A DNA stretch of 49,786 nt from Candidatus Colenecus caballi (GTDB lineage: Bacteria > Bacteroidota > Bacteroidia > Bacteroidales > Bacteroidaceae): assembly GCA_018065615.1 (NCBI GenBank), contig JAGHSY010000079.1, forward strand, positions 1-49,786, in the 5' to 3' direction. Position numbers and translations under genes: made by a program. Within the stretch, counting starts at the first letter, position 1; the number at the start of each line of letters is the position of its first letter. Positions 2,358 to 49,478 of the stretch are shown here, piece after piece. The notes under the pieces were generated by a model. It saw only the letters and a list, made by a program, of their open reading frames with translations. It searched no databases and was not told where the DNA came from.

Positions 2358-4982
2358 TTAAAGGGTTACCTCAATGCTCTTCAGGTCCTTGTCAAGTGAA
2401 GAACCGCCGTACAGGATCTGATAGCGGCCGGGTCTGAATGCAAGTTCGTCAATCTTCTCGTCATAGAAGCTGAAGGCGTCCTTTCCAAGACTGACCTTGA
2501 CCGTTGCGGTCTGGCCGGCAGCAATGTTCTGGCGCTTGAATCCGGCCAGAGACTTGATTGGAGCTGCAGGATCATCAAGAGCCTTCACGTAAACCTGAAT
2601 GACTTCATCACCGTCAACTGAACCTGTGTTGGTGACGGGAACGGTCAGTGTCATTGAAGCCGGCTTGCCTGCAACCTTGCCCTCACCATAGCTGAAGCTG
2701 GTGTAGCTCAGACCGTAGCCGAATGCGTACAGAGGCTCGCCCTTGAAGTAACGGTATGTGCGGTTCTGCATTGAGTAGTCCTGGAAATCGGGCAGCTGTT
2801 CAGTCGAAGCGTAGAATGTGACAGGCAGACGACCGCCCGGGTTGTAGTCACCGAACAGCACGTCAGCAACAGCCTTGCCGCATGCCTGACCGCCGTACCA
2901 TGCCTGCACAAGTGCATCGTACCTGTTTTCAACATTACCGAATCCGATGGCGCTGCCGGACACGTTTACCAGAACGACCGGCTTTCCTGTAGCGTCAAGT
3001 TCTGCAAGCAGCTGCTGCTGGATTTCCGGCAGTTCAATGGTTGAACGGTCGTGACCTTCGCCTTCAATGTCACTTGAAATGCCGCTGACCATCACAATGA
3101 CATCGGCCTTGGCAATCTTGCTGACAACCTTGCTGAAGTCAACCGGACCGCGGCTGTAGATGTCAAATGAGAACGATGCGGAACGGGCCTCGGGCTGGCT
3201 CAGCTCAATGTCAATGTTGTAGGTCTTGCCGGCCTCGACCTTGAATGTGGTTGCAGCCATGCCGCGTCCGAAACCGCCAAAACCACCGAATCCGCCAAAG
3301 CCGCCGCGTCCGCCGGCCTGTTCTGAGATGGTCTCACCGTTCAGCTTGAAGATGTACTTGCCGCTTCCGCGAACCGAATAGATCATGTCACCGGTATAGT
3401 CCGATGTAAAACTGCCGCTGTAGCGTGCGCTGAATCCGGTCAGGTTCAGACCGGGCTCCCATGCGCAGTCCTCATGTGCAAGGGCGGGTGAAGTGGTGTT
3501 CAGGTTCACCTTTTCATTATAGTCAGCCTTGGCTACGACATTGCCGCTGTAGTCAAGTGTGTTGTAATATTCGGCATGCAGGCCCTTGCCGCCGTTCAGC
3601 ATGGGAACATAATGTGTGGTCAGGAATGCCTCATTCAGGTCGCAGCCCTTCTCGTAAATGATATTGGCGCCGGGAGCAGCCTTACGAATGGCACCCAGAA
3701 TGGTCTGCGTGTTCTCCTTTGACGGGTAGCCGTTATAGTTGCCAAGAATCACGCGTGCGTCATCGGCATTCGGGCCCACAACTGCAATGGTCATGTCCTT
3801 TTTGAGAGGAAGAACGCTGTTCTCATTCTTGAGCAGCACAATTGCCTCATGTGCGGCCTTGTCAGCCAGAGCGGTATGTTCGGGGCTGCTCAGAGTCTCA
3901 AGTCCAAGGTCTGCCCATGGCAGCATGTCTTCAGGATCGAACATGCCAAGCTCGAAACGTGACTTGAGTATGCGGCGTACGTTCACGTCAATGTCGGCCT
4001 CGGAAATCAGCCCCTGCTCAATGGCGCCGACCAGCGCCTGATAGCTTGTGCCGCATTCCACGTCAGTGCCTGAAAGGACGGCGTCAACTGAAGCCTCGGC
4101 AGCGTTGGCATGCGTGCCGTGCTGGTTTTTGTTGAAGAAGTCGCCAATGGCACCGCAGTCCGATACCACCAGACCGCTGAATCCCCATTTCTGGCGCAGG
4201 ATGTCATCAAGCAGGAAATTGCTGGCGCAGCAGGGGTCGCCGTCATAACGGTGGTATGCGCACATGACTTCCTGAACGTTGCCGTCCTTTACGAGTGAAC
4301 GGAATGCGGGCAGATAAGTTTCCCAAAGGTCGCGGTCCGATACTTTGACATCGAACTGGTGGCGCAGAGGCTCCGGTCCGCTGTGAACGGCAAAGTGCTT
4401 GGCGCATGAATGGAGCTTGTAATACTTCTTGTCATTGCCCTGCATGCCCTTTACGGTCTGGGTTCCCATGACGGAGTTCAGATATGGATCCTCACCGGGA
4501 GTCTCCTGACCGCGGCCCCAGCGCGGGTCACGGAAAATGTTCACGTTGGGGCACCAGAATGAAAGTCCCTGATGCCAGATGCTGCCGTTGGGACGGGTCA
4601 CGCCCAGTTCATGGTGGTCCGTGGTGTTCCATACGGCACGGGCCTCATCGGACACTGCCGTATATATTTCATACTGCTGCGCATCATCAAAAGTAGCGCC
4701 CAGGGCAATTACCTGCGGGAATACGGTCACATCATCATAACATATTCCATGGCAGGCTTCATTCCACCAGTTGTAGGCGGGAATGTCAAGACGGTCCACA
4801 GAAACGGAGCCGTTCATCATAAGTCCGATTTTCTCTTCCGGGGTCAGAAGTGAAAGCAGGTTCTCAACCCTCCTGTCAACGGACAGTTTGGGGTTCTGAT
4901 AGGGATACTCATACTTGCTGCCGCAGCCGGAAAGCAGCAGGGCGCCGCCAAGGACGCACAGGGATAATGTCAGTTTACGCAT
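2358..4982 (-). CDS. GH3 beta-glycosidase lipoprotein with PA14 insert
   Basis: An 874-residue predicted lipoprotein: signal peptide with lipobox LLLSGC (Cys 20). The GH3 N-terminal barrel carries the nucleophile in VVSDCGAIG (Asp about 275); the C-terminal GH3 domain has EGEGHDRSTIELP (acid/base region about 640-650). A PA14 domain (about 467-608) is inserted in the C-terminal half, and a fibronectin-III-like domain lies at about 795-865. The SDCGAI form is common in beta-xylosidases and in some beta-glucosidases, so the substrate is uncertain. The PA14 domain contains an unusual GGFG-rich run at 557-575. It probably acts on oligosaccharides in the periplasm or at the outer membrane. No SusC/SusD pair is nearby. 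A minus-7 box lies at 5021-5028. Confidence 0.92.
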   Translation of the reverse strand: MRKLTLSLCVLGGALLLSGCGSKYEYPYQNPKLSVDRRVENLLSLLTPEEKIGLMMNGSVSVDRLDIPAYNWWNEACHGICYDDVTVFPQVIALGATFDDAQQYEIYTAVSDEARAVWNTTDHHELGVTRPNGSIWHQGLSFWCPNVNIFRDPRWGRGQETPGEDPYLNSVMGTQTVKGMQGNDKKYYKLHSCAKHFAVHSGPEPLRHQFDVKVSDRDLWETYLPAFRSLVKDGNVQEVMCAYHRYDGDPCCASNFLLDDILRQKWGFSGLVVSDCGAIGDFFNKNQHGTHANAAEASVDAVLSGTDVECGTSYQALVGAIEQGLISEADIDVNVRRILKSRFELGMFDPEDMLPWADLGLETLSSPEHTALADKAAHEAIVLLKNENSVLPLKKDMTIAVVGPNADDARVILGNYNGYPSKENTQTILGAIRKAAPGANIIYEKGCDLNEAFLTTHYVPMLNGGKGLHAEYYNTLDYSGNVVAKADYNEKVNLNTTSPALAHEDCAWEPGLNLTGFSARYSGSFTSDYTGDMIYSVRGSGKYIFKLNGETISEQAGGRGGFGGFGGFGGFGRGMAATTFKVEAGKTYNIDIELSQPEARSASFSFDIYSRGPVDFSKVVSKIAKADVIVMVSGISSDIEGEGHDRSTIELPEIQQQLLAELDATGKPVVLVNVSGSAIGFGNVENRYDALVQAWYGGQACGKAVADVLFGDYNPGGRLPVTFYASTEQLPDFQDYSMQNRTYRYFKGEPLYAFGYGLSYTSFSYGEGKVAGKPASMTLTVPVTNTGSVDGDEVIQVYVKALDDPAAPIKSLAGFKRQNIAAGQTATVKVSLGKDAFSFYDEKIDELAFRPGRYQILYGGSSLDKDLKSIEVTL

Positions 4983-5020
4983 ATTGTCATTAGTGAATCA
5001 GTTGTTTGTCAAAGATTTCC

Positions 5021-5052
5021 CAAAGATAGGAATTTGCAACGGTTTTGCAACG
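5021..5052 (-). promoter_or_regulatory. Promoter of the GH3 gene with direct repeats
   Basis: On the minus strand TATCTTTG (5021-5028) fits the Bacteroidota minus-7 consensus TAnnTTTG, 38 bases before the ATG. Just upstream, TTTGCAACG (plus-strand reading) occurs twice, at 5033-5041 and 5044-5052, 11 bases apart, about one helical turn, across the minus-33 region. A regulator binding there is inferred. Confidence 0.5.
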
Positions 5053-5097
5053 CAGATTCAGACATTTGAAATCAAAAAAACAGTGACCTTTGACGAT

Positions 5098-5463
5098 ATG
5101 AAAATCAGAAAAATCAGAATCCGCCTGTCAAAGGCATGGGCAAAAGTCACTTTCGCCACAGCATCACTGCTGCTGTCTGTCATTTCCCATGCCCAGCAGA
5201 GAAGTGACACCGTCAGGAGCCGTCTTCCGGAACCGGAGCCAATTGCCTTAAGAAGTGACAGCATAAAGCCCCAGCCCATAGATACAGCCAAGTTAAAAGA
5301 CGTCGGTATCATCTCCGTTGACAAAGCGTTGGCAGGACGACCTGTCATGTACGGCGCGTACATGATCATTTATGATAAATACGAACCTCTGCCCGGTTCC
5401 ACGACCATTGATGAGACCCTCCAGGGCACCGACGGCAACCATTACTTCAACAAACGCAGATAA
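5098..5463 (+). CDS. Small secreted protein of unknown function
   Basis: A 121-residue protein. I start at ATG 5098 (MKIRKIRIR) because a signal peptide follows directly: basic N-terminus, hydrophobic ATASLLLSVISHA and a probable cut before QQRSD. The mature part is short, proline-rich at first (LPEPEPIALRS), then has a folded-looking segment around RPVMYGAYMIIYDKYEPLPG. I do not recognise the family. It is divergently oriented from the GH3 gene and ends just before a palindromic repeat that separates it from the convergent barrel receptor gene. Confidence 0.6.
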   Translation: MKIRKIRIRLSKAWAKVTFATASLLLSVISHAQQRSDTVRSRLPEPEPIALRSDSIKPQPIDTAKLKDVGIISVDKALAGRPVMYGAYMIIYDKYEPLPGSTTIDETLQGTDGNHYFNKRR

Positions 5464-5468
5464 TGAAC

Positions 5469-5517
5469 TGCACAACGGGGACGGACCTTGCACAACAGGG
5501 ACAGTCCCCGTTGCGCA
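5469..5517. repeat. REP-like element, copy 3
   Basis: A tandem arrangement: TGCACAACGGGGACGGACCT, then a full palindrome beginning TGCACAACAGGGAC and ending GTCCCCGTTGCGCA. It sits between two convergent genes, where it could also act as a bidirectional terminator. Confidence 0.8.
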
Positions 5518-5521
5518 CTGG

Positions 5522-7855
5522 TCACTTCATCCTTTCCAGAGTCTCCTGACCGGCACCGGTACCCTTGTACTTGCTGCGGGCTGCATTAAAGGTGTAACGC
5601 AATGTGCAGGTCAGTTTCTGGGTATCCATAATGTTGTTCTGGTCATGGATATGGCCACCAAAATCGGCATGTATGAACGTGTTGGCCGTGCGTGTCAGAT
5701 CCTTGCCGTCAATACGCAGGACAAGCGACCGGTCAGGCAGGAAAGTCTTCTGTATTGAAGCGTTCAGACAGAAGTAATTCACTGTCAGCCACATGTTCTG
5801 GGTATATGCCTTGCTGTGGAATTCTCCGTCAACAGAAGCCTGAAATCCTAACGGTAGCGTGAACGTGTTGAAAGCCTGGATGACCCACATCGGCTTGTTG
5901 CTGAAATCAAGTTCCCTGCCCGGATAGTCAATCTTGAACCACTGGTTCTGGAAACCGACAAGATAATTCATTGTCCATATGCCGATTGTTGGAGCGGCAT
6001 TCACATAACATGCCAGAGTACGGATTGGCTTTTCCTTATTCTGAAGGTCAACCATGACAACACCGTCATTGTTATAAAGGTAAGACCACTGTACTATCGG
6101 ATTGTCCGTGCGTGAATACTGGGTAATGAAGGTGAACACGTTCCAGCGTGCGCTCAGTCCAAGTTCATGCTGTGTCATACTCTGCAGTTTTGAGTTGCCG
6201 CGCTGCCATACATAACGGCTGTTGTATCGGACTGCATCACTCAGATTGCTGAAACCTGGACGCTGTGTCTTGGCATTGTAGCTGAGAGAAGCCTGAACGG
6301 GGCCTATCACACCGGCCAGAGCGACTGTCGGGAAGAGATTGTCATATGTAATTGAAGTGTCTCTAACACCAGCAAGGTCATCATAGTTATAGCCCACATG
6401 CTCGTAACGGAGTCCTACGCTCATCTGCGCACGGCCAAACAGGACACGTCCGTACTGCGCAAAGAAGCCCAGATTGTTCTCCTTCACTTCCGATGATGAT
6501 GAAGCCATGATGTTGGTGGTGTATTCATCGCTGTGGCGGGCAAAGGTCTGTTCGGTTCCCGCTTCCAACATACCGCCTGCAACAGGATATCCAAGAACCA
6601 GCTTGTAAGCCAGCAGATTGCTGCTGTTCTTTGAGTCAGTCCTTACAACAGCATCCTCAACCATACCCTTTTCAAAGGTTTCGGCCTTGTTGCCGGAGTT
6701 CGATGCATACCAGTCCGCATTCAGATCGATTGACATCTTGCCGACCACGCCGTTGTAATATGCGTTGATTCCTGTCGATACGGGATTGCCGTCCTCACGG
6801 TCAGTGCCTATTGTGCTCAACGTGTCTGCCAGCAGTCCGTCCTTGTAGAACTTTTCAGTCATACGCTGGTCTGTACGGGCTCTGTAGTCCGATGAACGGT
6901 CAATGCGGAAACCGACAGAATGGATGTCATTGATCTGCCAGTTGATACCGCCGTTCGCATTCCAGCCACGGTAGTCCATGTCATTGTAAAGGGCCGCATC
7001 CTGTACATATCCGGGAGTGCCGAATGTCTGCTGGATGAATGTGGCGTCCTGCCTGTTATGATAGGTGAAGAAAGTGCCGCCGGCAAAGAAGTCAAGACCG
7101 TTTACACGGTAGTTCATATTCAATGTCGTGGTCGGGTCATTGAATGACTTGTAGCGCAATGACTGCTCGTCCTTGGCCACCGCATTGAAACTGAATCCGT
7201 CACCCTGATGCTTTACGGTCTTGATGCGGACGACAGCGGTCACTGACGCGTCATACTGGGCTCCCGGATTGTTTATAACCTCAACACTCAGAATTTCATT
7301 GCTCAGCAGGCGGTCCAGTTCCGCAGCGTCACGCATAAGACGGCCATTGATGTAGACAACCGGCTTGCCCTTGCCAAGCACCTCAAGACCATCCTGGCCC
7401 CTGATCATGCCCGGCACATTCTCAAGCACGTCCTTGGCGCTTCCGCGTGTTTCCAGGACAGTACCCTGAATGGAAGTCTCAAGACCTTGTGGAGTCAGCT
7501 GCGTCTTTGGACGCGTAGCCTTGATCTCCACCTCTGCCAGCTGCTGTGATTCCGGTTTCAGGACAACTGTCATGTTCTCTGCAACAGGCAGATTCAGATA
7601 TGCAGTCTCATACCCGATTGACGATATGCGCAGGATGCCCTGAGTCACATTGGTCGGAATCTCAAACAATCCGTCCATATCAGACACCGTGCCTTGTACA
7701 AAAGTGGAATCATTTGTAAGAAGAACGACTGTGGCATACGGCATTGACTCATTTGAAGAATCAACTACCTTACCTTTGAAATCAGGATTAGTCCCTTTGG
7801 CCTGACCGGCCACTGCAGCCATCACGGTTGCCAAAAACAGAATTGACCTTTTCAT
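5522..7855 (-). CDS. TonB-dependent-receptor-type outer membrane barrel protein
   Basis: A 777-residue outer membrane protein. The start at 7855 (MKRSILFLA) gives a clean signal peptide ending near GQAKG. Residues about 30-115 form a carboxypeptidase-regulatory-like domain (FKGKVVDSSNESMPYATV), followed by a plug-type region (DVLENVPGMIRGQDG and VVYINGRLM) and a long barrel of the OMP_b-brl_3 type found in many Bacteroidota. Family knowledge: such proteins resemble TonB-dependent receptors but often lack a known substrate. No SusD partner or TonB box is evident. It is an isolated gene divergent from the AmpG-like transporter; its ligand is unknown. Confidence 0.88.
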   Translation of the reverse strand: MKRSILFLATVMAAVAGQAKGTNPDFKGKVVDSSNESMPYATVVLLTNDSTFVQGTVSDMDGLFEIPTNVTQGILRISSIGYETAYLNLPVAENMTVVLKPESQQLAEVEIKATRPKTQLTPQGLETSIQGTVLETRGSAKDVLENVPGMIRGQDGLEVLGKGKPVVYINGRLMRDAAELDRLLSNEILSVEVINNPGAQYDASVTAVVRIKTVKHQGDGFSFNAVAKDEQSLRYKSFNDPTTTLNMNYRVNGLDFFAGGTFFTYHNRQDATFIQQTFGTPGYVQDAALYNDMDYRGWNANGGINWQINDIHSVGFRIDRSSDYRARTDQRMTEKFYKDGLLADTLSTIGTDREDGNPVSTGINAYYNGVVGKMSIDLNADWYASNSGNKAETFEKGMVEDAVVRTDSKNSSNLLAYKLVLGYPVAGGMLEAGTEQTFARHSDEYTTNIMASSSSEVKENNLGFFAQYGRVLFGRAQMSVGLRYEHVGYNYDDLAGVRDTSITYDNLFPTVALAGVIGPVQASLSYNAKTQRPGFSNLSDAVRYNSRYVWQRGNSKLQSMTQHELGLSARWNVFTFITQYSRTDNPIVQWSYLYNNDGVVMVDLQNKEKPIRTLACYVNAAPTIGIWTMNYLVGFQNQWFKIDYPGRELDFSNKPMWVIQAFNTFTLPLGFQASVDGEFHSKAYTQNMWLTVNYFCLNASIQKTFLPDRSLVLRIDGKDLTRTANTFIHADFGGHIHDQNNIMDTQKLTCTLRYTFNAARSKYKGTGAGQETLERMK

Positions 7856-39495: not shown

Positions 39496-39510
39496 AGAAT
39501 TTTAATTGTG

Positions 39511-39559
39511 TGCACAATGGGGACAGTCCCTGCACAATGGGGACAGTCCCTGTTGTGCA
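39511..39559. repeat. REP-like element, copy 4 (tandem)
   Basis: A 20-bp unit (TGCACAATGG + GGACAGTCCC) repeated exactly twice head to tail (39511-39530, 39531-39550), then the inverted arm TGTTGTGCA. It separates the FISUMP lipoprotein gene from the M13 promoter and lies about 55 bases after the FISUMP stop. Confidence 0.85.
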
Positions 39560-39613
39560 CAGCCCTGCGGCTGAATGCTTGCTTTGCCAGTCATACCAGT
39601 GGCGGGACAAATC

Positions 39614-40606
39614 CTACTTGCAGACAGGCCTGACGGACCGACCGAGGTAACGGTCGTCGAAGTACGTGTAGCTGTAGCCTGAGAAGAAGTAGAGGTTAGG
39701 CGCGCCGTACGAGTAGCTCTCTTTGAGCGAACTGGACCAGTAGTAGCCGCTTGAACCGACACCGTAGAGACCCGTGCCGTAGCGGTAGCCGGCAGCTGGA
39801 AGAAAAATCCAATTGCCTGCGTAGCCGGACTTCTTGCTTACTACCTTATAACCGCTAACGCCGTTCATGGTGGTCCAGGTCCAGGTGCAGTTGCTGGTGT
39901 TTAGCAGTTCTTCGAATTCGGCATTAGTGGGCATGCGCCAACTGCCGCCCCAGTTCACATGGGCGGCATCGTCGCTCAGGTCAAGCACGGTTTTGTTATC
40001 TACTGTACCGTATGAACTGCTGGTGCAGTATTTGGTCATGGTGTCATCTGAGCCTTTGCAATACTTATAGGTGGACCAGCTGTAATCGGACTTCGGACTG
40101 GTCTCGCCCCAGGCAAAGTAGTCGCCGTAGTCTTCGGGCTTTTCGGCACCGACGTTGAATGTGGCCCACTTGACGCTCAGGCCAAGGTCAACGCAGGCAT
40201 ATTCCGGCATTGCCTTCTGGCTCACATTGAGTTTGACGCTGTAAGACCAATATGGAACTGTCGAGCTTAAAGTTATTGTCCCAATTCTCGGAGATTTGGA
40301 TTTGTTTTCCGATGCCTTAATTGTGATAGTCTTCGGACCTTTTCCCGATGTTTGAGATACCGTTATCCAACTTGGAATATCCTCAAGTCTCCATGGTGTA
40401 TCATAAAAGTCATAACTATTGATATCGACTGATAGAGTCTGAGGATTTGAAGACTTGAATGATATGTCTTTTTTTGAAAAGCTCAGCGAATAGCCGTAGT
40501 CTGACGCCACCATATCCTTCATGTGATTCTCATCCTCACAGGAACTGTTCAGCAGCAGGAATGCTGTCTGCAACAATATAGCAGTTATGCAAAAAAATTT
40601 CTTCAT
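39614..40606 (-). CDS. BACON-FISUMP lipoprotein, single FISUMP domain
   Basis: A 330-residue lipoprotein (lipobox LLNSSC). A BACON-like domain spans about 40-132 (LSFSKKDISFKSSNPQTLSV, IPSWITVSQTSGKG), then one FISUMP domain about 138-330 beginning VDLGLSVKWATFNVGAEKPE and ending LGRSVRPVCK. FISUMP domains are C-type-lectin-like folds found on surface proteins of gut Bacteroidota. The gene starts 6 bases after the PEGA protein gene and forms a module with it. The C-terminal loop differs sharply from the related domains at 43.4-45.7 kb. Probably surface-exposed and ligand-binding (inference). Confidence 0.85.
   Translation of the reverse strand: MKKFFCITAILLQTAFLLLNSSCEDENHMKDMVASDYGYSLSFSKKDISFKSSNPQTLSVDINSYDFYDTPWRLEDIPSWITVSQTSGKGPKTITIKASENKSKSPRIGTITLSSTVPYWSYSVKLNVSQKAMPEYACVDLGLSVKWATFNVGAEKPEDYGDYFAWGETSPKSDYSWSTYKYCKGSDDTMTKYCTSSSYGTVDNKTVLDLSDDAAHVNWGGSWRMPTNAEFEELLNTSNCTWTWTTMNGVSGYKVVSKKSGYAGNWIFLPAAGYRYGTGLYGVGSSGYYWSSSLKESYSYGAPNLYFFSGYSYTYFDDRYLGRSVRPVCK
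39635..39792 (-). other. Variable segment of FISUMP domain 4
   Basis: Coding segment between GYRYG and the invariant SVRPVC end. It shares the frame GSxGYYWSSSL with the other copies but differs at most following codons (YFFSGYSYTYFDDRYLG). Candidate hypervariable lectin loop. Confidence 0.5.
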
Positions 40607-40612
40607 AGGACA

Positions 40613-42262
40613 TCAAAAATAAAAGTCTATTCCGAATCTTGCGCTGAAACCGTCAAACCAGTCATCGAAAACGTTTGTATTCTCATTCATCCTTTTTGCA
40701 ACATTGCCCATCATCAGCGGAATTGAATAAACAGGTGCCGCAACAATTGAAAGGTGGCGTATTGGCGACCATTCCATACGCATTGATGCTGTACCGCTTA
40801 CTGTATATGTAACAGGGTCTCCCTGATATGCAACCTGATTATAGTTAATGCCTATCTGGGGTGTGAACACCAATGATTTGGCCAGAAACAGTCCGTAACC
40901 GGTTCTGACCGATATCACATTGGAAATATCATAGCTGCAACTATTTGTGAATTGGTCATTCTGATACGGCAGCCAATGAACAATCTTCGCGCCGCTACCT
41001 CCCTCATTATAAGCAATTTCAAAGTTAAAATTCTTTCTGTACAGGCCCAATTCACCGGACGGTCCCCATAACCTGCCTGTCTGCCATCCTAAACCGACAT
41101 ACAGATTACGGCTGTCCAACCTGCGTTTTTCTGTCGTCCGCCTGCTCTTGGGGGTCTTTACACCGGAACCGGTTGTCCTGTCTGCAGGCTGCACTGTTGC
41201 CGCAGCCGTGTAATTGCCCCTCATATCGGCCTCGACAGGAGTCATTTTGCCTTCCAGGACTGATACAGTCATTCTATAGGGCGTATAGTCCTTCTTTCTG
41301 AATTCCAGTTCGTGTTCACCGACAAGAAGATTACCCGTCAACAGCGGAGTCTCACCAATTTCCACACCATCAATCAGTATTGTCGCCTCATTGGGTGTAC
41401 TCATGATTGAAAGTGTACCGTATATGGGTTGAGGTGCCGGTACCGATACCGTCTTCTCCTCCTGGACATCAAGTGAGAATGTAATGCTACGCGTTCTGTG
41501 TCCTTCAAGCTTGGCTTCCACAAGGTACATCTGAGCAGGATCAAGCTGACCGTTCCATTTGCCGTCACCAACGTAATTACCATCAAGATACAGCCTGGCA
41601 TCAGACATCGGACAAGACAATGTTACCGTTCCTTTGGTCGATTTCAGAACCACTTCCTTTTTCTGTTTTTCTCCCGTGACTTCAAATGTGCCAGACTCGG
41701 AAAGATATCCTGCCGCATCAATCCTATAAACATGACTGCCAAATGGCAGCATCAGTGACAGCGTTCCATCGTCCCCCAATGCTCTTGGCTGTCCGTCATC
41801 AACAGTCACCGTGGCTGTTCCGGGCTGAACGCTGAATGTGACGAACTGTCCGTTGGGACGATCCTCAACATAAGTATGAACTACACCGGCAACAAGCCGC
41901 AGTTCATACGTGCGTCCCTTCTCGACCGGGATTGGGATGTTCCAGTCACGCAGCACACCAAGCTGCTGATGTGCTATTGTCAGTTTGCTGGTTCCGAACG
42001 GCACATAAACCCATACCTCGCCAGTTTTCTGTTCCGATGCAACTATACCCATCATCCCATTCTCAAAAGTGAATCCGGTTTCTGATGTGACTATCCTGAT
42101 TAATGCAGCTACATCACCGTTCTGGTCACGCTTCATGGTGCCGGCTGTGTTGGCAGTAAGGTCCGTCTCAAGCAGTCTGAAGCTTTCGACCGACAGGGAC
42201 TGCGCACCTATTGCGGCAGAAAACATCATACAGACAAATGCTGATATTATCTTCTTGAACAC
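40613..42262 (-). CDS. PEGA-domain protein with predicted C-terminal barrel, copy 1
   Basis: A 549-residue secreted protein starting at GTG 42262; the GTG is supported by alignment with the ATG start of copy 2 (MFKK in both). Signal peptide ends near AIGAQ. The N-terminal 120 residues (SLSVESFRLLETDLTANTAG, GEVWVYVPFGTSKLTIAHQQ) are nearly identical to copy 2; PEGA-type repeats follow (YGTLSIMSTPNEATILIDGV, GTVTLSCPMSDARLYLDGN), a Lys/Arg-rich linker, and a C-terminal strand-rich region ending ARFGIDFYF with terminal Phe. It probably sits in the outer membrane or binds peptidoglycan; function unknown. It lies 18 bases after the vapC-type gene. Confidence 0.82.
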   Translation of the reverse strand: MFKKIISAFVCMMFSAAIGAQSLSVESFRLLETDLTANTAGTMKRDQNGDVAALIRIVTSETGFTFENGMMGIVASEQKTGEVWVYVPFGTSKLTIAHQQLGVLRDWNIPIPVEKGRTYELRLVAGVVHTYVEDRPNGQFVTFSVQPGTATVTVDDGQPRALGDDGTLSLMLPFGSHVYRIDAAGYLSESGTFEVTGEKQKKEVVLKSTKGTVTLSCPMSDARLYLDGNYVGDGKWNGQLDPAQMYLVEAKLEGHRTRSITFSLDVQEEKTVSVPAPQPIYGTLSIMSTPNEATILIDGVEIGETPLLTGNLLVGEHELEFRKKDYTPYRMTVSVLEGKMTPVEADMRGNYTAAATVQPADRTTGSGVKTPKSRRTTEKRRLDSRNLYVGLGWQTGRLWGPSGELGLYRKNFNFEIAYNEGGSGAKIVHWLPYQNDQFTNSCSYDISNVISVRTGYGLFLAKSLVFTPQIGINYNQVAYQGDPVTYTVSGTASMRMEWSPIRHLSIVAAPVYSIPLMMGNVAKRMNENTNVFDDWFDGFSARFGIDFYF

Positions 42263-42280: not shown

Positions 42281-42691
42281 TTACACATTAAGCCTGGCAA
42301 GAAACTCGGCAGGAGAAAAAGCAGGAACAGGCGAGTCTGCAAAATGTCTGGAATCCCGGGTAAGAATAATGTCGCAGCCACCCCGGTCCGCACATGACAC
42401 CTGCATGGCATCCTCCATGTCCGTTATGTGGCCGGATAACGCATAACGGACATCCTTATCGTCCATTGGAAGAATATGGATATTGCCAAGTCTGTTACCT
42501 ATTGTGGCAGCAACATCTGTTTCTTTACGAAGAATGTAAAAACTGTTGGATACTGTAATGGGAGATATGTAAAATTCGAAGCCATCAAGTGCTGCTATCT
42601 TCAGCAGCCTGAAAGCATTTTCGTTGTCTTCCCGCTTGTCCCTACGAACAATAGTATCCAGAAATATGTTTGTATCAAGAAATACTTTCAT
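42281..42691 (-). CDS. PIN-domain toxin, VapC-like
   Basis: A 136-residue PIN-domain ribonuclease. Acidic residues are in FLDTNIFLD (Asp 6), DMEDAMQ (91-94) and LTRDSRHF (Asp 113). The usual second acidic residue is absent (ISPITVSNSFYILRK), as in the PIN_3-type Bacteroidota group. It overlaps the antitoxin gene by ATGA. It lies between two copies of the PEGA/FISUMP module. Confidence 0.88.
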   Translation of the reverse strand: MKVFLDTNIFLDTIVRRDKREDNENAFRLLKIAALDGFEFYISPITVSNSFYILRKETDVAATIGNRLGNIHILPMDDKDVRYALSGHITDMEDAMQVSCADRGGCDIILTRDSRHFADSPVPAFSPAEFLARLNV

Positions 42692-42981
42692 TTTCCAAGA
42701 ATATATGACATACGTTCATCATTCTCAAGTTCAAGGGCAGACGGCTGCGTAAGTCCTTCAATGAAACTCTGCATTTCTGTATCCGATACTGACGGAATCC
42801 TTATCTTGGGGAAGACCGGACTTTCCTTTGCAGACACCTTCCTGATACGAATAGCCGAATCAACTTCAAGGCTCAATTCGAACTTTGTGTTCTCCTTAAG
42901 ATTCATCTGCTTGAGAATCCTGGACGGTATAATGAAGGCATTGCTGTTGCCTACCTTGACTAATGAAACTGGTACTGCCAT
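42688..42981 (-). CDS. AbrB/MazE-like antitoxin, VapB-like
   Basis: A 97-residue protein with an N-terminal swapped-hairpin AbrB fold (VSLVKVGNSNAFIIPSRILK, LKENTKFELSLEVD) that binds DNA, and a C-terminal tail (LTQPSALELENDERMSYILG) likely to wrap the toxin. Promoter box TATTTTTG lies 23 bases before the ATG and is flanked by an inverted repeat. Together with the PIN protein it forms a type II toxin-antitoxin pair. Confidence 0.87.
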   Translation of the reverse strand: MAVPVSLVKVGNSNAFIIPSRILKQMNLKENTKFELSLEVDSAIRIRKVSAKESPVFPKIRIPSVSDTEMQSFIEGLTQPSALELENDERMSYILGK

Positions 42982-43044: not shown

Positions 43045-43449
43045 CACAAAATATATCAAACGTTAATGCGTACGTATTTATCCGACTTATTGAACCGAGC
43101 AGGGAACAGTTCATCCACTCGCGTTCCCGTGCAACCAATTTATCCATAGCCTAAGCAATTAAGATATTGCGGATATTTTATATCAACATTTTATCCGTAA
43201 TTGCCACAATATTACCACTTACGGACAAAACTCTACTACAAAGATATGTATTACTGCTTGTCTTGCAATAGATTTGCAGAATAATCCAGCATATCTCAAA
43301 TTTTCGTGCAAAACAGCTTTCTGCCCACACTAAATTCCGATTGAGCCTAGGCGACCTGCGCCGCAGGCGGTGCCGGGCGACTCCGTCGCCTCCTGTAGGC
43401 ACCACCCGCCTCGCACGCCGAATGCCTGCACGTCGGGGCAGGACAAATC
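43045..43449. other. Gene-free AT-rich stretch with GC-rich hairpins at its right end
   Basis: No supported gene here. A minus-strand TATCTTTG box (43239-43246) points left toward the vapBC pair with no reading frame directly after it. An imperfect inverted repeat TCCGTAA / TTACGGA lies near 43194-43225. At the right end two GC-rich hairpins follow the FISUMP stop: CCTGCG/CGCAGG (43355-43367) and GGCGAC/GTCGCC (43376-43390); an outer GGCGAC at 43350 could pair with the same GTCGCC. They may terminate the long FISUMP gene. Confidence 0.55.
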
Positions 43450-46400
43450 CTATGGGCAGACGGGCCGTACGGACCGACCGGAGTCGCGGAGGTGGTGGTG
43501 CCAATTCACACCTCCCGAATCGAAGTCCAGGTAGTACGCGCCGTCCGGGTTGCCCGTACTGAGCGAACTGGACCAGAAGTAGCCGTAGGAACCAACGTCG
43601 TAGAGGGTCGTGCCGCCGCGTAATCCCGCTGCAGGAAGAAAGATACAATTGCCCACGTAGCCGGATTTCTTGCTCACTATCTTGTAACCGTTAACACCAT
43701 TCATTGTGGTCCGCGTCCAGGTGCAGTTGCTGGTGTTGCGTAATTCGTCCTGCTCGGCATTAGTCGGCATTCGCCAATCTCCACCCCAGTTTGCATGGGC
43801 GGCATCGTCTTCAGGGTCAAGGACACTATTGTTATCGGTAAAGCCGTTGTAACCATAGCTGCTATTGGTGCAGTATTTGGTCATGCTGTCATATGAGCCT
43901 TTGCAGTACTTGTAGGTGGACCAGCTGTAGTCGGACTTTGGTTCTGTCTCACCCCAGGCGAAGTAGTCACCATATTCCTCTGGCTTTGTGGCACCGACGT
44001 TGCAGTTGGCCCACTTGACACTCAGGCCAAGGTCAACGTACTCTGGTTCAATTGGCTTGACTGTCACTGAACAGGTGGCAGAAAACGAGCCGCTGGAGGC
44101 AGTGATGGTACAGGTGCCAACGGATACGGCAGTTACCTTGCCAATCTGATCAACGGTGACAACGCTGCTGTTGCTGGTGGTCCAGGTGACAGTGTTGCTT
44201 GTTGCTCCATTTTCGTACCGTACAGTCGCCGTCAAAGTTTCCGTTTCGCCTGGCTGAATTTCGATGGACTGTTTGCCAAGGCTGACGCCTATGACAGGAA
44301 CAGGGCAGACGGGCCGCACGGAGTTGCCGCAGTAACGGGCAACGTAGTTTCTCGAGGAATAAAAATTCGAGTTGGAAATCAAGTAGGATGCACCATCCGA
44401 CAAGCCCGCGAGGGAACTGGACAAGTAGCCGCCATCGGAGCCACTAAGAAGACCAAGTTTCGTACCTTTACAATATCCAGCCGCGGGAAGAAAAATGTAA
44501 TTGCCAACATAACCCGACTTTTTGCTGACGACCTTGTAACCGCTAACGTTGTTCATCGTAGTCCAAGTCCAGGTGCAATTGCTGCTGTTACAAAGTTCAT
44601 CCTGCTCAGCACTGGTAGGCATACGCCAGTCTCCGCCCCAGTTCACATGGGCGGCATCGTCCTCAAGGTCAAGGATAGTCTTGCTGTCGGTATATCCGTA
44701 GTAGCCGTAGCTGCTATTATTGCAGTACTTGGTCATGGTGGTTTCACTGCCCTTGCAGTACTTGTAAGTGGACCAACTGTAACTGGACTTTGGTTCTGTC
44801 TCGCCCCAGGCAAAATAGTCACCATATTCTTCCGGCTTTGTGGCTCCAACGTTGAAAGTAGCCCATTTGACACTTAGGCCAAGATCTACGTACTTATATG
44901 GGCTAGAGACTATTACGGAGCAAGTGGCGGAGTACGAGCCGCTGGTGGCTGTGATGATGCAGGTGCCAACTGATACGGCTGTAACCTTGCCAGTCTGGTC
45001 AACAGCGGCGACACCAGTGTTGCTGCTGGACCAAGTTACGGTGTTGCCGGTTGTTCCATTTTCGTACTGGACCGTTGCTGTCAGAGTTTCTGTGCCGCCT
45101 TCCATTATTTCAACGGACTGTCTGCTAAGGCTGATGCTTGTGACAGGAACTGGGCAGACGGGCCGTACGGACTGACCGTAGTCGCGGCCGCCGCTGCCGT
45201 CCCAATACACACCCCCCGAACCGAAGTACAGGCAGTACGCGCCGCCCGGGCTGCCCGTATTGAGCGAACTGGACCAGTAGTAGCCGTCGGAGCCAACGCG
45301 GTAGAGGGCCGTGCCGCCGCGGTATCCCGCTGCGGGAAGAAAAATATAATTGCCTGCGTAGCCGGACTTCTTACTTACTACCTTGTAACCATTAACGCCA
45401 TTCATCGTGGTCCACGTCCAGGTACAGTTGCTGGTGTTGCGTAATTCGTCCTTCTCGGCCTTAGTCGGCATTCGCCAATCTCCACCCCAGTTTACATGGG
45501 CGGCATCGTCCTCAGGGTCAAGGACACTATTGTTATCGGTAAAGCCGTTGTAACCATAGCTGCTATTATCACAATATTTGGTCATGCTGTCATATGAGCC
45601 TTTGCAGTACTTGTAGGTGGACCAACTATAGTCTGACTTTGTTTCTGTCTCGCCCCAGGCAAAGTAGTCGCCGTAGTCTTCGGGCTTTTCGGCACCGACG
45701 TTGCAGGTGGCCCATTTGACGCTCAGGCCAAGGTCAACGTACTGCATATCTACTCTGTCCTTCTGCACTACTGTCACGTTCTTGTTCACCGAGCCGGTCA
45801 CGACATCGGTCAGAGACAGAGAAAGTGTGGCCTGACGCTCTTCTGTACCGTCAGTATAGTCCTGCGCCGTTACCGTAAACTGGGTTGCGGACAGCCTGTT
45901 GACGGTAATCCACGCTGCGGTGTTAGTGATTTCACATACGCCATCAGTCTCAATAAGAACGGCATCGGATGTGCCACCCCTTCTGAAGAATGTCAGCGTG
46001 TCAGCCGATGTGCGCAGATAACGGGCGGCCTGAGTGGCCTGGATGCTGATGGGTGTCAAACCTTGTACCTTGACCGTAACATAGCTGCTGCGCGGTGTCG
46101 CAGACGGGTTATCCTTTGCCTTGATGGTGACAGAACTGTCATCAGAGCCACCGGTCAGAGATGCAGAAAGCCAGTCGGCCCCTGACTCTATTGTCCAATC
46201 GACATTGGACGACAGGCTGACCTGTGTGCTGCCACCCTTTGATGTAAAGTCCAAAGCCTTTGATGAAACAGTCAAATAGCGGCCGGCCTGATACACAGGT
46301 ATTGCAATTGTCCGGCCTTCAATTTCAACCGATACAATACCGGTACGTGCCGTCCCAGATTCATTTGCAGTAGCACTGACACAAATGGTCTCATTTCCTG

Positions 46401-47721
46401 TGCCAGATGTGGGGCTTACGCTAATCCAGCCATTGTCCGAGCCTGCTACCCAGTCGGCATCGGACTCCAACTGAAATGTGAGCTGGCCGGCACGGGCCGA
46501 AAAATGGAGGGCGGTAGAATCGGCCGCAAGCGTATGACCGGCCTGGAAGACGTCTATTTCCCGCGGGCTGTCAACGGCTGCAGGAGTTATGTAAATCCTG
46601 TACTGGCGGGAGTCCGCATTATTGTTTTTCTTTACCTCAACCGTCACTGATGCGTTGCCCGTGCCGCTTGACGGTGTCACGGTTAACCACTCAGGCATAC
46701 CGTCACAGAACTTCCACGGAGCATTGGATGTTACCTGTATCTGCAACTTTGCAGACGTTACAGGGAATTCAAGTTCCGTCCGGTCAACGCTAAGGTGTAT
46801 GCCTTCCTGCCTGACAGGTATTTCTATCCGGTTCTGGGCAGACAGTTCAAGATAGACGAATCCCTCTCTGTCCAGAGTGGTGTTATTGGCCAACGCCTTT
46901 ACACTGACTATAACAGTCCCGGCAGGACCTGTCTGCGGCGTGATTTCAAGCCATGAATATGCAGTCCTGGCTGTCCACCCGGCATCGGACTGTACTGATA
47001 CGCTTTCCGTACCGCCGCCAACAGGGAAAGTCAGATTTTTGGTCGTACTGCTTATGTTGGCGGGACGCTGTGTGACAGTAATGTATTCCAGGCTCTCACT
47101 GGTTGACACCTCTATCTTGACAGAACGGGATACGTTTGTTGTGTTGGCTGTAACTGTGACCGTCACGTTGTCTGCAGACTTGGATGCACTGCACCAAGAT
47201 GACGAATTGGACGGTACAGATACCTTCCATGAGTCGGTATTGGAAATGACCGGCACTTCTTTGCTTCCGGCAGCACCGTCAAGAACTATACTTGAAATCT
47301 GGGGAACTGCCGAATAGCTGCAGCGGTCCTGCGTGACTGTAAGCTGTGTGCTGTAGTTCCAGTCATCTTCACGGGAGCGCAGGGTTATGATGCCGACCCT
47401 TGACGTTGTGCTGGCGTTCTCCTTGACCGTCACTTTGATTATTGCAGTATTTGAGCCGGATAAAGATGATAAGGTTATCCATGATGGTATATCCGTGAAC
47501 TCCCATGATGTATTGGTTGAACTCACCGACAAATCTGAAGATTCTGATTCCGAGCTGAATGTCAGACTATGAGCCGATATGTTCAGCTGGCGGATTGTTA
47601 CAGAAGGCACCATCCCGCTGAACGGCTCTCCTTTGTCTTCACATGAAATCAGAACTGCTGCAAGGAATGGTATTGCCAGCAATGGCAGTATTATATTTTT
47701 CAGTCTCATTGTCATCTGCAT
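43450..47721 (-). CDS. Large surface lipoprotein with BACON array and three FISUMP domains
   Basis: A 1423-residue lipoprotein (lipobox AVLISC). About seven BACON-like repeats occupy residues 45-655, each with a pattern like SWITLSSLSG or WLTVTPSSGTGNASVTV. Three FISUMP domains follow at about 660-855, 943-1140 and 1229-1423, each starting YVDLGLSVKWA and ending SVRPVCP, separated by Big_2-type immunoglobulin-like domains (ETLTATVQYENGTTGNTVTW; ETLTATVRYENGATSNTVTW). FISUMP copies 1 and 3 share long identical DNA blocks, yet their last ~50 codons differ by replacements. The start ATG overlaps the PEGA gene stop (TAATG). Probably displayed on the cell surface for binding glycans or partner cells (inference). 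Confidence 0.88.
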   Translation of the reverse strand: MQMTMRLKNIILPLLAIPFLAAVLISCEDKGEPFSGMVPSVTIRQLNISAHSLTFSSESESSDLSVSSTNTSWEFTDIPSWITLSSLSGSNTAIIKVTVKENASTTSRVGIITLRSREDDWNYSTQLTVTQDRCSYSAVPQISSIVLDGAAGSKEVPVISNTDSWKVSVPSNSSSWCSASKSADNVTVTVTANTTNVSRSVKIEVSTSESLEYITVTQRPANISSTTKNLTFPVGGGTESVSVQSDAGWTARTAYSWLEITPQTGPAGTVIVSVKALANNTTLDREGFVYLELSAQNRIEIPVRQEGIHLSVDRTELEFPVTSAKLQIQVTSNAPWKFCDGMPEWLTVTPSSGTGNASVTVEVKKNNNADSRQYRIYITPAAVDSPREIDVFQAGHTLAADSTALHFSARAGQLTFQLESDADWVAGSDNGWISVSPTSGTGNETICVSATANESGTARTGIVSVEIEGRTIAIPVYQAGRYLTVSSKALDFTSKGGSTQVSLSSNVDWTIESGADWLSASLTGGSDDSSVTIKAKDNPSATPRSSYVTVKVQGLTPISIQATQAARYLRTSADTLTFFRRGGTSDAVLIETDGVCEITNTAAWITVNRLSATQFTVTAQDYTDGTEERQATLSLSLTDVVTGSVNKNVTVVQKDRVDMQYVDLGLSVKWATCNVGAEKPEDYGDYFAWGETETKSDYSWSTYKYCKGSYDSMTKYCDNSSYGYNGFTDNNSVLDPEDDAAHVNWGGDWRMPTKAEKDELRNTSNCTWTWTTMNGVNGYKVVSKKSGYAGNYIFLPAAGYRGGTALYRVGSDGYYWSSSLNTGSPGGAYCLYFGSGGVYWDGSGGRDYGQSVRPVCPVPVTSISLSRQSVEIMEGGTETLTATVQYENGTTGNTVTWSSSNTGVAAVDQTGKVTAVSVGTCIITATSGSYSATCSVIVSSPYKYVDLGLSVKWATFNVGATKPEEYGDYFAWGETEPKSSYSWSTYKYCKGSETTMTKYCNNSSYGYYGYTDSKTILDLEDDAAHVNWGGDWRMPTSAEQDELCNSSNCTWTWTTMNNVSGYKVVSKKSGYVGNYIFLPAAGYCKGTKLGLLSGSDGGYLSSSLAGLSDGASYLISNSNFYSSRNYVARYCGNSVRPVCPVPVIGVSLGKQSIEIQPGETETLTATVRYENGATSNTVTWTTSNSSVVTVDQIGKVTAVSVGTCTITASSGSFSATCSVTVKPIEPEYVDLGLSVKWANCNVGATKPEEYGDYFAWGETEPKSDYSWSTYKYCKGSYDSMTKYCTNSSYGYNGFTDNNSVLDPEDDAAHANWGGDWRMPTNAEQDELRNTSNCTWTRTTMNGVNGYKIVSKKSGYVGNCIFLPAAGLRGGTTLYDVGSYGYFWSSSLSTGNPDGAYYLDFDSGGVNWHHHLRDSGRSVRPVCP
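43474..43626 (-). other. Variable segment of FISUMP domain 3
   Basis: Coding segment between the conserved FLPAAG and SVRPVCP. Against copy 1 nearly all differences are replacements at codon positions 1 or 2; the segment reads LDFDSGGVNWHHHLRDSGR where copy 1 has LYFGSGGVYWDGSGGRDYGQ. Confidence 0.6.
44322..44478 (-). other. Variable segment of FISUMP domain 2
   Basis: The most divergent of the three in this gene: GYCKGTKLGLLSGSDGGYL, then LISNSNFYSSRNYVARYCGN before SVRPVCP, compared with copies 1 and 3. Confidence 0.5.
45173..45327 (-). other. Variable segment of FISUMP domain 1
   Basis: Reference copy for comparison with domain 3: GYRGGTALYRVGSDGYYW then LYFGSGGVYWDGSGGRDYGQ, one codon longer than domain 3 in the last loop. 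Confidence 0.6.
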
Positions 47722-49478
47722 TAGAAGTATAGTTCAACACCAATTTCAGCAGCAAACCCGGAACACCAGTCACAGACAAGTGACGTGTACTTGTCAAGCT
47801 GTTCGGCAATAGGACCCATCCGGACCGGTTTAAGATAAGATGGTCTTGCAACAAGGGCAATATGCCTTAAAGGAGAGTATTCAAGTTTAAGACCGGCCAT
47901 GGCACTCAGTACGCCGGTCTCCTGGTCTTCACTCTGTATTACCAGGTTTGAAACGCCGGCCTGCGGCGTTATCCGGAACATATTGTTCAGCCTTATGCCG
48001 TAACCCAATACGGCAGACAGTTTTGACTTGCACTGATACTGGCATTCCACATATCGGGTCGAGGAGGCCTCTGTCGCAGGGTCAGTCACCCAGTATATGG
48101 TCACTTTATCCTTATTGGGACTGTAATAACCTATTTCCATGTTCAGGTCATGCAGGTATATTCCGGCACTGAAGTCAATGTCTCCACCAAGACCGTACAA
48201 TGCACTCAGTTGTAACTGGTTCCGTGTCAGCAGACGTTTTGGCATATCAATGGAAATTTCCGGATGAATGGCATCTATATGCATAGTCTTGTGGTATGTC
48301 TCATAGCCCTGCTTGGAAAGCCGTATGTCGTGGTCACCCGATGACATTTCCTTCTGGAACGGAGTTATTCCCTGCGCCTGTCCGTCAATTGTCAGTGACG
48401 CTCCTGACGGATTCGACTTGAATACAGCCTGGAATACATCACTCAACTTGACACTGACACTTTCCATCTGACCTTCCTTTACAGTTACCGTTGTCTTGTA
48501 CGGGCTGTAGTCTTGGCGAATGAGTTCTATTTCATGGTCACCTATCAGGATGTCTCCCTGCAACAACGGTGTCTCACCCACCTCCTTGCCGTCCAGCAGG
48601 ACTGTAGCCCTGCCGGGAGTGCTGGTTATGGACAGCGTTCCGTAAATGGGCTGCGGTGCCGGAGCCGATACCGTTTTGGTTCCACGGGCTTCAAGCGTGA
48701 ATGATGTCACTCTTGACCTGTGCCCAGCAAGACGCGTTTCCACCTGATACATGGCCGGATCCAACTGACCTGTCCATGAACCGTGTCCTACCAGTTCGTT
48801 GTTGAGGTAAATTTCGGCATCGGACATGGGGCATTCTATGGTGACCGTTCCCTTTGACGACTTGAGCGCAACGCTTATTGTCTTCTTTTCAGAATCGACC
48901 TGGATTATTCCGTCCTCAGGACTGTAACCTGGAGCCTCTACATGATAGCTGTGACTGCCGTATGACAGAAGTTGCGACACGCTGCCTTCCAAATCAAGCT
49001 GGTACAGGTTGTCATCAATTCTTACCGATGCCGTTTTGGGTTCGACCATAATAGTCACGAACTGTGCCGATACCTGATCTTCAACTATGGTACGCACTTT
49101 GCCTGAAACAAGCCGCAGTTCATACGTGCGTCCCTTCTCGACCGGGATTGGGATGCTCCAGTCACGCAGCACGCCAAGCTGCTGGTGCGCTATTGTCAGT
49201 TTGCCGGTTCCGAACGGCACATAAACCCATACCTCGCCGGTCTTCTGTTCCGATGCGACAATGCCAAGCATGCCGTTGTCAAAGGAGAACCCGGTCTCTG
49301 ATGTGACCACCTTTATGAGCGCTGCAACATCGCCGTTCTGGTCTCGTTTCATGGTGCCGGCAGTGTTGGCTGTAAGGTCCGTCTCAAGCAGTTTGAAGCT
49401 CTCTACCGACAGGGACTGCGCACCCAGTGCAACCGCAGTCAGAACAAATGCAATTGAAAGGAATATCTTTTTGAACAT
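47721..49478 (-). CDS. PEGA-domain protein with predicted C-terminal barrel, copy 2
   Basis: A 585-residue secreted protein with signal peptide ending ALGAQ. The first ~120 residues are about 90 percent identical to copy 1; then three PEGA-like repeats (GTLSITSTPGRATVLLDGKE, AVFKSNPSGASLTIDGQAQG and an earlier GTVTIECPMSDAEIYL) and a C-terminal strand-rich part ending AAEIGVELYF with terminal Phe, strongly diverged from copy 1. One PEGA repeat more than copy 1 explains the extra length. The stop overlaps the start of the giant lipoprotein gene. It may help anchor or export the lipoprotein encoded with it (inference). Confidence 0.83.
   Translation of the reverse strand: MFKKIFLSIAFVLTAVALGAQSLSVESFKLLETDLTANTAGTMKRDQNGDVAALIKVVTSETGFSFDNGMLGIVASEQKTGEVWVYVPFGTGKLTIAHQQLGVLRDWSIPIPVEKGRTYELRLVSGKVRTIVEDQVSAQFVTIMVEPKTASVRIDDNLYQLDLEGSVSQLLSYGSHSYHVEAPGYSPEDGIIQVDSEKKTISVALKSSKGTVTIECPMSDAEIYLNNELVGHGSWTGQLDPAMYQVETRLAGHRSRVTSFTLEARGTKTVSAPAPQPIYGTLSITSTPGRATVLLDGKEVGETPLLQGDILIGDHEIELIRQDYSPYKTTVTVKEGQMESVSVKLSDVFQAVFKSNPSGASLTIDGQAQGITPFQKEMSSGDHDIRLSKQGYETYHKTMHIDAIHPEISIDMPKRLLTRNQLQLSALYGLGGDIDFSAGIYLHDLNMEIGYYSPNKDKVTIYWVTDPATEASSTRYVECQYQCKSKLSAVLGYGIRLNNMFRITPQAGVSNLVIQSEDQETGVLSAMAGLKLEYSPLRHIALVARPSYLKPVRMGPIAEQLDKYTSLVCDWCSGFAAEIGVELYF

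Follow-up and report, generated by a model that had tools for sequence, protein, structure and literature searches.

The tails of four FISUMP/Lcl_C-type domains encoded in a 49,786-nucleotide stretch of Candidatus Colenecus caballi DNA (the window) carry the substitution pattern of a retroelement, and their interpretation as products of a diversity-generating retroelement (DGR) is supported. In our judgement it is highly probable that these tails are variable repeats (VRs) written by a DGR whose reverse transcriptase (RT) and template repeat (TR) have most likely been lost, leaving the sites dormant, and that the copies lying inside a protein are DGR-made variants kept by duplication or conversion. 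DGRs acting on the FISUMP domain are already known; newer are the retention of such targets without an RT across species and the array of domains within one protein.

The window is the entire contig C88 of its source draft genome (G000; 2.25 Mb, 125 contigs, 90.8% complete), in which 26 FISUMP-like matches were found in total (E <= 1e-3). All four domains of the window are on the minus strand. Three of them, N3 (45151-45741), M2 (44302-44892) and C1 (43453-44040, the last in the protein), lie within a 1,423-residue open reading frame (ORF) at 43450-47721, N3 and C1 being copies 3 and 1 of an earlier note on this DNA; the fourth, S4, is an extra copy not used in that note's comparison and lies within a 330-residue ORF at 39614-40606. 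The larger target gene (43450..47721, minus strand) encodes a signal peptide, BACON repeats and the three FISUMP/Lcl_C domains with Big_2 between them, for which Pfam returned seven stretches of BACON, two of Big_2 and two of Lcl_C (E 1e-13 for Lcl_C in the target protein, by sequence). The smaller one (39614..40606, minus strand) has one BACON and one FISUMP domain, its Lcl_C match being under the Pfam cut-off (22.1 of 34.9 bits). By eye, the first signal peptide has a lipobox-like cysteine and the second is likewise lipobox-like; from these signal peptides and the BACON, Big_2 and Lcl_C domains, the sequences suggest that both genes encode surface lipoproteins whose binding end is lectin-like. 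A structure model of the FISUMP domain (pLDDT 95.9) had no Foldseek match in the PDB at E <= 0.001 and weak ones to Lcl_C and lectins, the best relevant match being the Lcl C-terminal domain at a non-significant E of 0.48, and a PDB sequence search with FISUMP gave no meaningful match. By eye, the gene pairs at 39614-42262 and 43450-49478 are alike, each with a PEGA-domain gene and then a BACON-FISUMP lipoprotein-like gene. Between the two FISUMP genes, on the minus strand, are a PIN-domain toxin-like gene (42281-42691) and a MazE-type antitoxin-like gene (42691-42981).

When the four domains were aligned codon by codon, C1 and N3 showed 22 silent and 12 replacement codon differences in the framework (codons 1-133), against 2 silent and 18 replacement differences in the tail (codons 140-191, 50 of them comparable; Fisher p=7.8e-5), close to the 23 and 13 and the 2 and 15 that had been counted by hand in the earlier note. 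Framework and tail also differ when codon positions 1 and 2 are set against position 3 (p=8.7e-6). The third base, which that note had described as kept in the tail replacements, is indeed unchanged in every replaced tail codon except codon 140 (TAC/TTA), and third positions differ at 3 of 50 codons in the tail and 26 of 133 in the framework (p=0.024). The scarcity of silent changes in the tail is weak evidence alone, and we rejected it as proof by itself, the framework being patchy as well, with a single silent change in codons 58-105. Both features could arise with no retroelement ever involved, through positive selection on the binding face combined with recombination between tandem copies: a replacement excess by itself can result from selection, and patchy silent differences are what sequence exchange between such copies leaves. 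This explanation makes no prediction about the template of another species, and on that point it is largely refuted by the comparisons below.

A search for a DGR RT and template in related genomes, whose failure would by the earlier note have refuted its reading, instead turned up a complete DGR within the same genus. RVT_1 was matched at 13 places in the genus, spread over 7 of its 37 genomes, and the RT of one of these, G018, has the motif IGNLTSQ and an adjoining FISUMP gene. On its 8-kb contig (L052) the order is a FISUMP gene (L052:2037-3965) with a VR (3772-3978), an accessory gene (4137-4667), an AAC-rich TR (4833-5039) and the RT (~5059 to 6243). By sequence, the best PDB match of this RT is 8ub7 (E 2e-34), which we take to be a DGR RT. 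The TR reads FLPAAGYRNDTNFNNAGSNGNYWSSSLNTDNPNNAWNINFNSSNVNANINNRNNGFSVRPVCP, that is, the window tail with Asn codons at the positions that vary among the window copies. Of 207 sites compared, 27 are not the same in VR and TR: 24 lie at template adenines and the remaining three at the far 3' end; over the core, 24 of 51 adenine sites differ and none of the 135 others.

Genome contigs scanned with the G018 RT yielded 42 loci, in Bacteroidales and some Saccharibacteria, 27 of which (the G018 contig counted) have an adenine-specific TR/VR pair adjoining the RT and on its strand. In these 27 the TR ends where the RT match starts or a short way before it, and the YWS/FWS core of the FISUMP tail is visible by eye in 24 of the 27 printed TRs, that of L115 being read in the wrong frame. 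The repeat pair reported for L140 was rejected as a scanning artefact. A conserved accessory protein of ~180 residues, with the core EG.F.RAYEWSAWL (by eye), lies between VR and TR; the G018 copy finds 25 of the 27 loci of the L103-L141 set (itself included) and has no match in Pfam, NCBIfam or PHROGs. It occupies the place that Avd has in other DGRs.

The tails of the window were compared on the G018 TR, which belongs to another species, so that the test addresses an excess of differences at the adenines of a relative's template. On this template, N3 (45154..45342) and C1 (43456..43641, from FLPAAG to SVRPVC by codon alignment to the TR) differ at 20 of 51 adenine sites and at 6 of 135 others (p=1.5e-8), which places 20 of their 26 nucleotide differences on template adenines. 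With the template placed at 61 codon-wise shifts, the count on adenines was at most 14 (mean 8.7), and the excess persists when codon positions 1 and 2 alone are counted (20 of 50 against 2 of 74; p=9.5e-8). The DGR-like character ascribed to these tails in the earlier note is thereby borne out on the template of a relative. The S4 tail (39620..39805) differs from C1 at 28 of 51 adenine sites against 32 of 135 others and from N3 at 24 of 51 against 33 of 135; its adenine excess with the diverged, VR-like M2 tail (44305..44493) is not significant (p=0.056), and between M2 and C1 many non-adenine sites (53 of 135) differ as well. In the five pairs tried with shifted templates, no codon-wise shift matched the true register. 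Against the relative's TR, the adenine excess is thus strong in the three pairings of N3, C1 and S4.

The same excess extends through the genus: it was seen in all 20 pairs of 61-codon tails compared within a genome (p<0.05, uncorrected), a set from which 17 tails of other length, N3 and M2 included, were left out and in which one G016 tail was off register (p = 6.6e-6 and 0.052 once realigned). As a control, one pair of G000 FISUMP tails without an IMH showed no adenine bias (25 of 51 against 74 of 132; p=0.85). Selection with recombination does not predict differences on the adenines of another species' template, nor the conserved 12-base IMH and the hairpin that stand behind the terminal copies; on these grounds, and given the unbiased control pair, we hold it to be very improbable. 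In tandem FISUMP proteins of two other genomes (L149, G010:C4; L034, G025:C8), internal tails have adenine-biased differences too, and the last copy is followed by a degenerate form of the IMH.

The IMH, TAGGATTTGTCC, follows C1 at 43441..43452 (minus strand), with its 12 bases identical to those of the G018 VR, and S4 at 39605..39616 (minus strand); a tail-end-plus-IMH pattern found both. In both, TAG is the stop codon, so that the IMH comprises the stop codon plus nine noncoding bases. The G018 TR carries TAGCACTTGTCC where the VR carries this IMH; their 3' ends have TAG-GATTTGTCC in the VR and TAG-CACTTGTCC in the TR, and a similar switch is seen in many other loci. An IMH differing from the TR's IMH* is thus present after C1 and S4 and absent from N3 and M2. 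With up to two mismatches, the pattern found 33 places in 16 of the 37 genus genomes (reversed control, 0), a count that includes the G018 TR as one place and rests on the pattern rather than on a check of each FISUMP gene. Of 41 tail readings, 19 are followed by TAGGATTTG. Two more G000 FISUMP tails outside the window were caught by the tail search expression, neither with an IMH.

Behind the IMH of C1 is a GC-rich predicted hairpin (43357..43415, minus strand) with an imperfect stem of ~22 bp in the centroid fold; its folding is weakly distinguished from shuffles (z -1.66, 9 of 200 equally good), and its position agrees with that of the VR hairpins of relatives. The corresponding element of S4, a foot GCAAGCATTCAG with its hairpin (39510..39582, minus strand), folds at z -3.25 (0 of 200 shuffles equally good), and the 3' flanks of N3 and M2 have no hairpin (z 0.05 and 0.82). 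A foot near GCAAGCATTCAG is common to the VR hairpins of the genus, and a longer pattern for the foot was found at 10 places in 7 of 37 genus genomes (none in its reversed control), always at a distance of 15-32 bases behind an IMH site; it caught neither hairpin of the window. In RT-bearing loci, by z-scores from home-made shuffles, z was -4 or lower for 24 of 30 VR flanks but for 2 of 30 TR flanks, both in L106, the VR flank folded for L115, L118 and one L135 pair beginning >100 bases behind the VR. The largest predicted stems in these loci have 13-38 pairs in VR flanks and 7-19 in TR flanks. The hairpins themselves vary in sequence (in L052, L148, L155, L160, L205 and others): among 23 flanks folded in the genus, many form long stems that differ in sequence yet keep their pairing, and some form none.

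These features can be joined into one course of events. In the related loci, an AAC-codon TR stands just upstream of a DGR-type RT, and the VRs differ from the TR almost only at template adenines. In the lineage of the window, mutagenic cDNA from such a template would have overwritten the FISUMP genes at their 3' end, the replacement being anchored at the IMH (TAGGATTTGTCC) and aided by the hairpin behind it, with the outcome that part of a lectin-like surface lipoprotein was rewritten. C1 and S4 would then retain the landing site. N3 and M2, which lie inside the protein with neither IMH nor hairpin, would be DGR-made variants kept through tandem duplication of the domain. Because N3 has no IMH, its close agreement with C1 points to conversion from C1, or to duplication with partial exchange; N3 may thus have undergone a later gene conversion with C1.

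The caution that the earlier note had voiced over the absence of an RT was right and extends past the window, as neither RT nor TR was found in the G000 assembly. The RVT_1 profile (PF00078) had no match in G000, and the G018 accessory protein found no relative there. With the G018 RT protein as query, a single match on G000:C108 (E 0.06) runs antisense to a histidine-kinase-like ORF and was rejected as chance. The C1 tail as a blastn query (E <= 1) found places on C88 only, plus matches of 32 and 21 bases (E 0.19 and 0.65), and the G018 TR (E <= 1e-5) found C88 only, hence no template elsewhere in the assembly. The tail-end-plus-IMH pattern, which with two mismatches also caught the G018 TR, found only C1 and S4 in G000. 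Elsewhere in the genus, a scan of all 13 RT loci for repeat pairs with adenine-specific differences revealed two further DGRs, in G010:C31 (L056:5418-7464; RT 26% identical to that of G018, a TR with 40 adenines, 18 of 21 mismatches at adenines) and in G024:C26 (L054:6392-8255; RT 31% identical, 21 of 25 mismatches at adenines). Their targets are non-FISUMP ORFs of ~440 residues, perhaps phage-like or prophage proteins, and as their templates do not read as a FISUMP tail, both were rejected as the source of the window's template. G010 also has IMH-marked FISUMP sites and G024 has none; three further RT regions examined at greater length (L053, L055, L057) contained no repeat pair.

For the VRs of the window, the best reading is thus that the machinery has been lost or is located elsewhere. 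The latter would mean a DGR that is still active, its RT and TR lying on sequence missing from the draft, such as a short contig or an unbinned mobile element, and writing C1 and S4 in trans. An assembly of 125 contigs at 90.8% completeness could indeed lack the RT, and the G018 cassette sits on an 8-kb contig of the kind that a bin can lose; moreover, the IMH is kept exactly at both C1 and S4, and the tails of C1 and N3 agree at nearly all non-adenine sites. We nevertheless regard continued activity as unlikely, if far from negligible. C1 and S4 differ at 32 of 132 non-adenine sites, as compared with 4 of 112 and 1 of 147 between the paired VRs of two RT-bearing loci, and thus were not recently written from one template; at third positions, their tails differ at 15 of 50 codons, about as often as their frameworks do (46 of 130). 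In addition, RTs of the G018 family do assemble elsewhere on long contigs, of up to 1.1 Mb, and 15 of the 16 IMH-bearing genomes of the genus have no detected FISUMP-type RT. The chance of missing a cassette in all 15 would be ~7e-14 if completeness applied to the cassette, an assumption that may fail for mobile DNA.

Loss of the RT/TR cassette from the lineage of the window, with the sites now dormant, is therefore the most likely reading, given the lack of RT, TR and accessory gene in G000, the non-adenine divergence of C1 and S4, and an RT fragment in G013. That fragment, of 51 residues at 56% identity, stands among other genes in a genome with eight IMH-like sites and is likely the remnant of a lost RT. 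An intact IMH, in part with a long hairpin, in genomes without the RT is odd for old relics. A portable cassette of RT and TR, entering and leaving lineages while IMH and hairpin stay behind the chromosomal FISUMP genes as landing sites open to any incoming cassette of the family, would fit the finding that 16 of 37 genus genomes carry IMH-marked sites and G018 alone was found to have a FISUMP-type RT/TR, as well as the long stems of differing sequence behind the VRs of several genomes without the RT, the remnant in G013, and the scatter of RT relatives over genera: at E <= 1e-30 the RT matches 22 of 399 sampled genomes of the family, in 10 of 30 genera, a set not established throughout as DGRs of FISUMP type and including G024. 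Such portability seems to us distinctly unlikely. Recurrent loss without re-entry gives the same counts, some VR flanks in genomes without the RT have no long hairpin (for example, L146-8770 and L200), and around the G018 cassette the one sign of a mobile element identified is a gene for a BRO/antirepressor-like protein (by eye). Equally tentative is the wider notion that this genus of gut Bacteroidales keeps many ready chromosomal landing sites, each with VR, IMH and long hairpin, without a matching RT, for travelling cassettes, and that tandem duplication archives successful variants in one surface protein; if it were true, the three-domain gene of the window would be an example of such an archive.

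Loss with retention of the targets has a parallel among known systems. Treponema denticola isolates without the core DGR keep VR-bearing target genes, for which the authors propose multiple gains and losses (PMC4891356); as in the window, targets with VRs persist where RT and TR are gone, although that case lies within one species, whereas here the retention spans a genus, IMH and hairpin have been followed as well, and several domains stand in tandem within a single protein. Among DGRs of the human microbiome, DUF1566 (now Lcl_C) is the commonest target (47 proteins), and Fib_succ_major occurs in 9 targets, Big_2 in 9 and one target is a predicted lipoprotein (PMC4159848); DUF1566 is also a target in PMC6642488. 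The window resembles the DUF1566/Fib_succ_major systems in the domain family of the target, a VR at the 3' end of the gene and adenine-specific substitutions, and differs from them in an assembly without RT or TR, four related domains and two variable tails inside a protein (PMC4159848). As in the BPP-1 DGR of a Bordetella phage, the VR is followed by an IMH unlike the TR copy (IMH*) and then by an inverted repeat, which in that system aids homing (PMC3240598, PMC12875486). Phage DGR hairpins have stems of 7-10 bp and 4-base GRNA loops, in contrast to the 13-38 pairs predicted in VR flanks of the G018 family (PMC3240598, PMC12875486). A further difference from BPP-1 is that the accessory protein of G018 has no Pfam match. 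A review cites DGRs that diversify Bacteroides tip pilins (PMC12632263), and a DGR survey states that remote targets, with the VR away from the RT, would escape it (PMC8144416). Our literature search, with subscription literature largely outside its scope, found no report of FISUMP targets without an RT.

DGR-made hypervariable surface domains can thus be recognised without a nearby RT, from the template adenines of a relative together with the IMH and the hairpin, and surveys that begin from the RT would miss such targets. The case poses a testable question about the survival of DGR targets beyond that of their mutator and about the gain and loss of cassettes; the tandem array, for its part, suggests a way for a bacterium to retain one hypermutated binding face as further ones are made. 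As to where relatives of the G018 RT occur, those in phage and plasmid collections are all below 60% identity (28 and 22 records, respectively), and a viral contig collection held three, at 35-49%. Relatives of this RT are also found in Candidatus Saccharibacteria (L137-L140), two of which (L138 and L139) have an A/T-specific repeat pair on the opposite strand.
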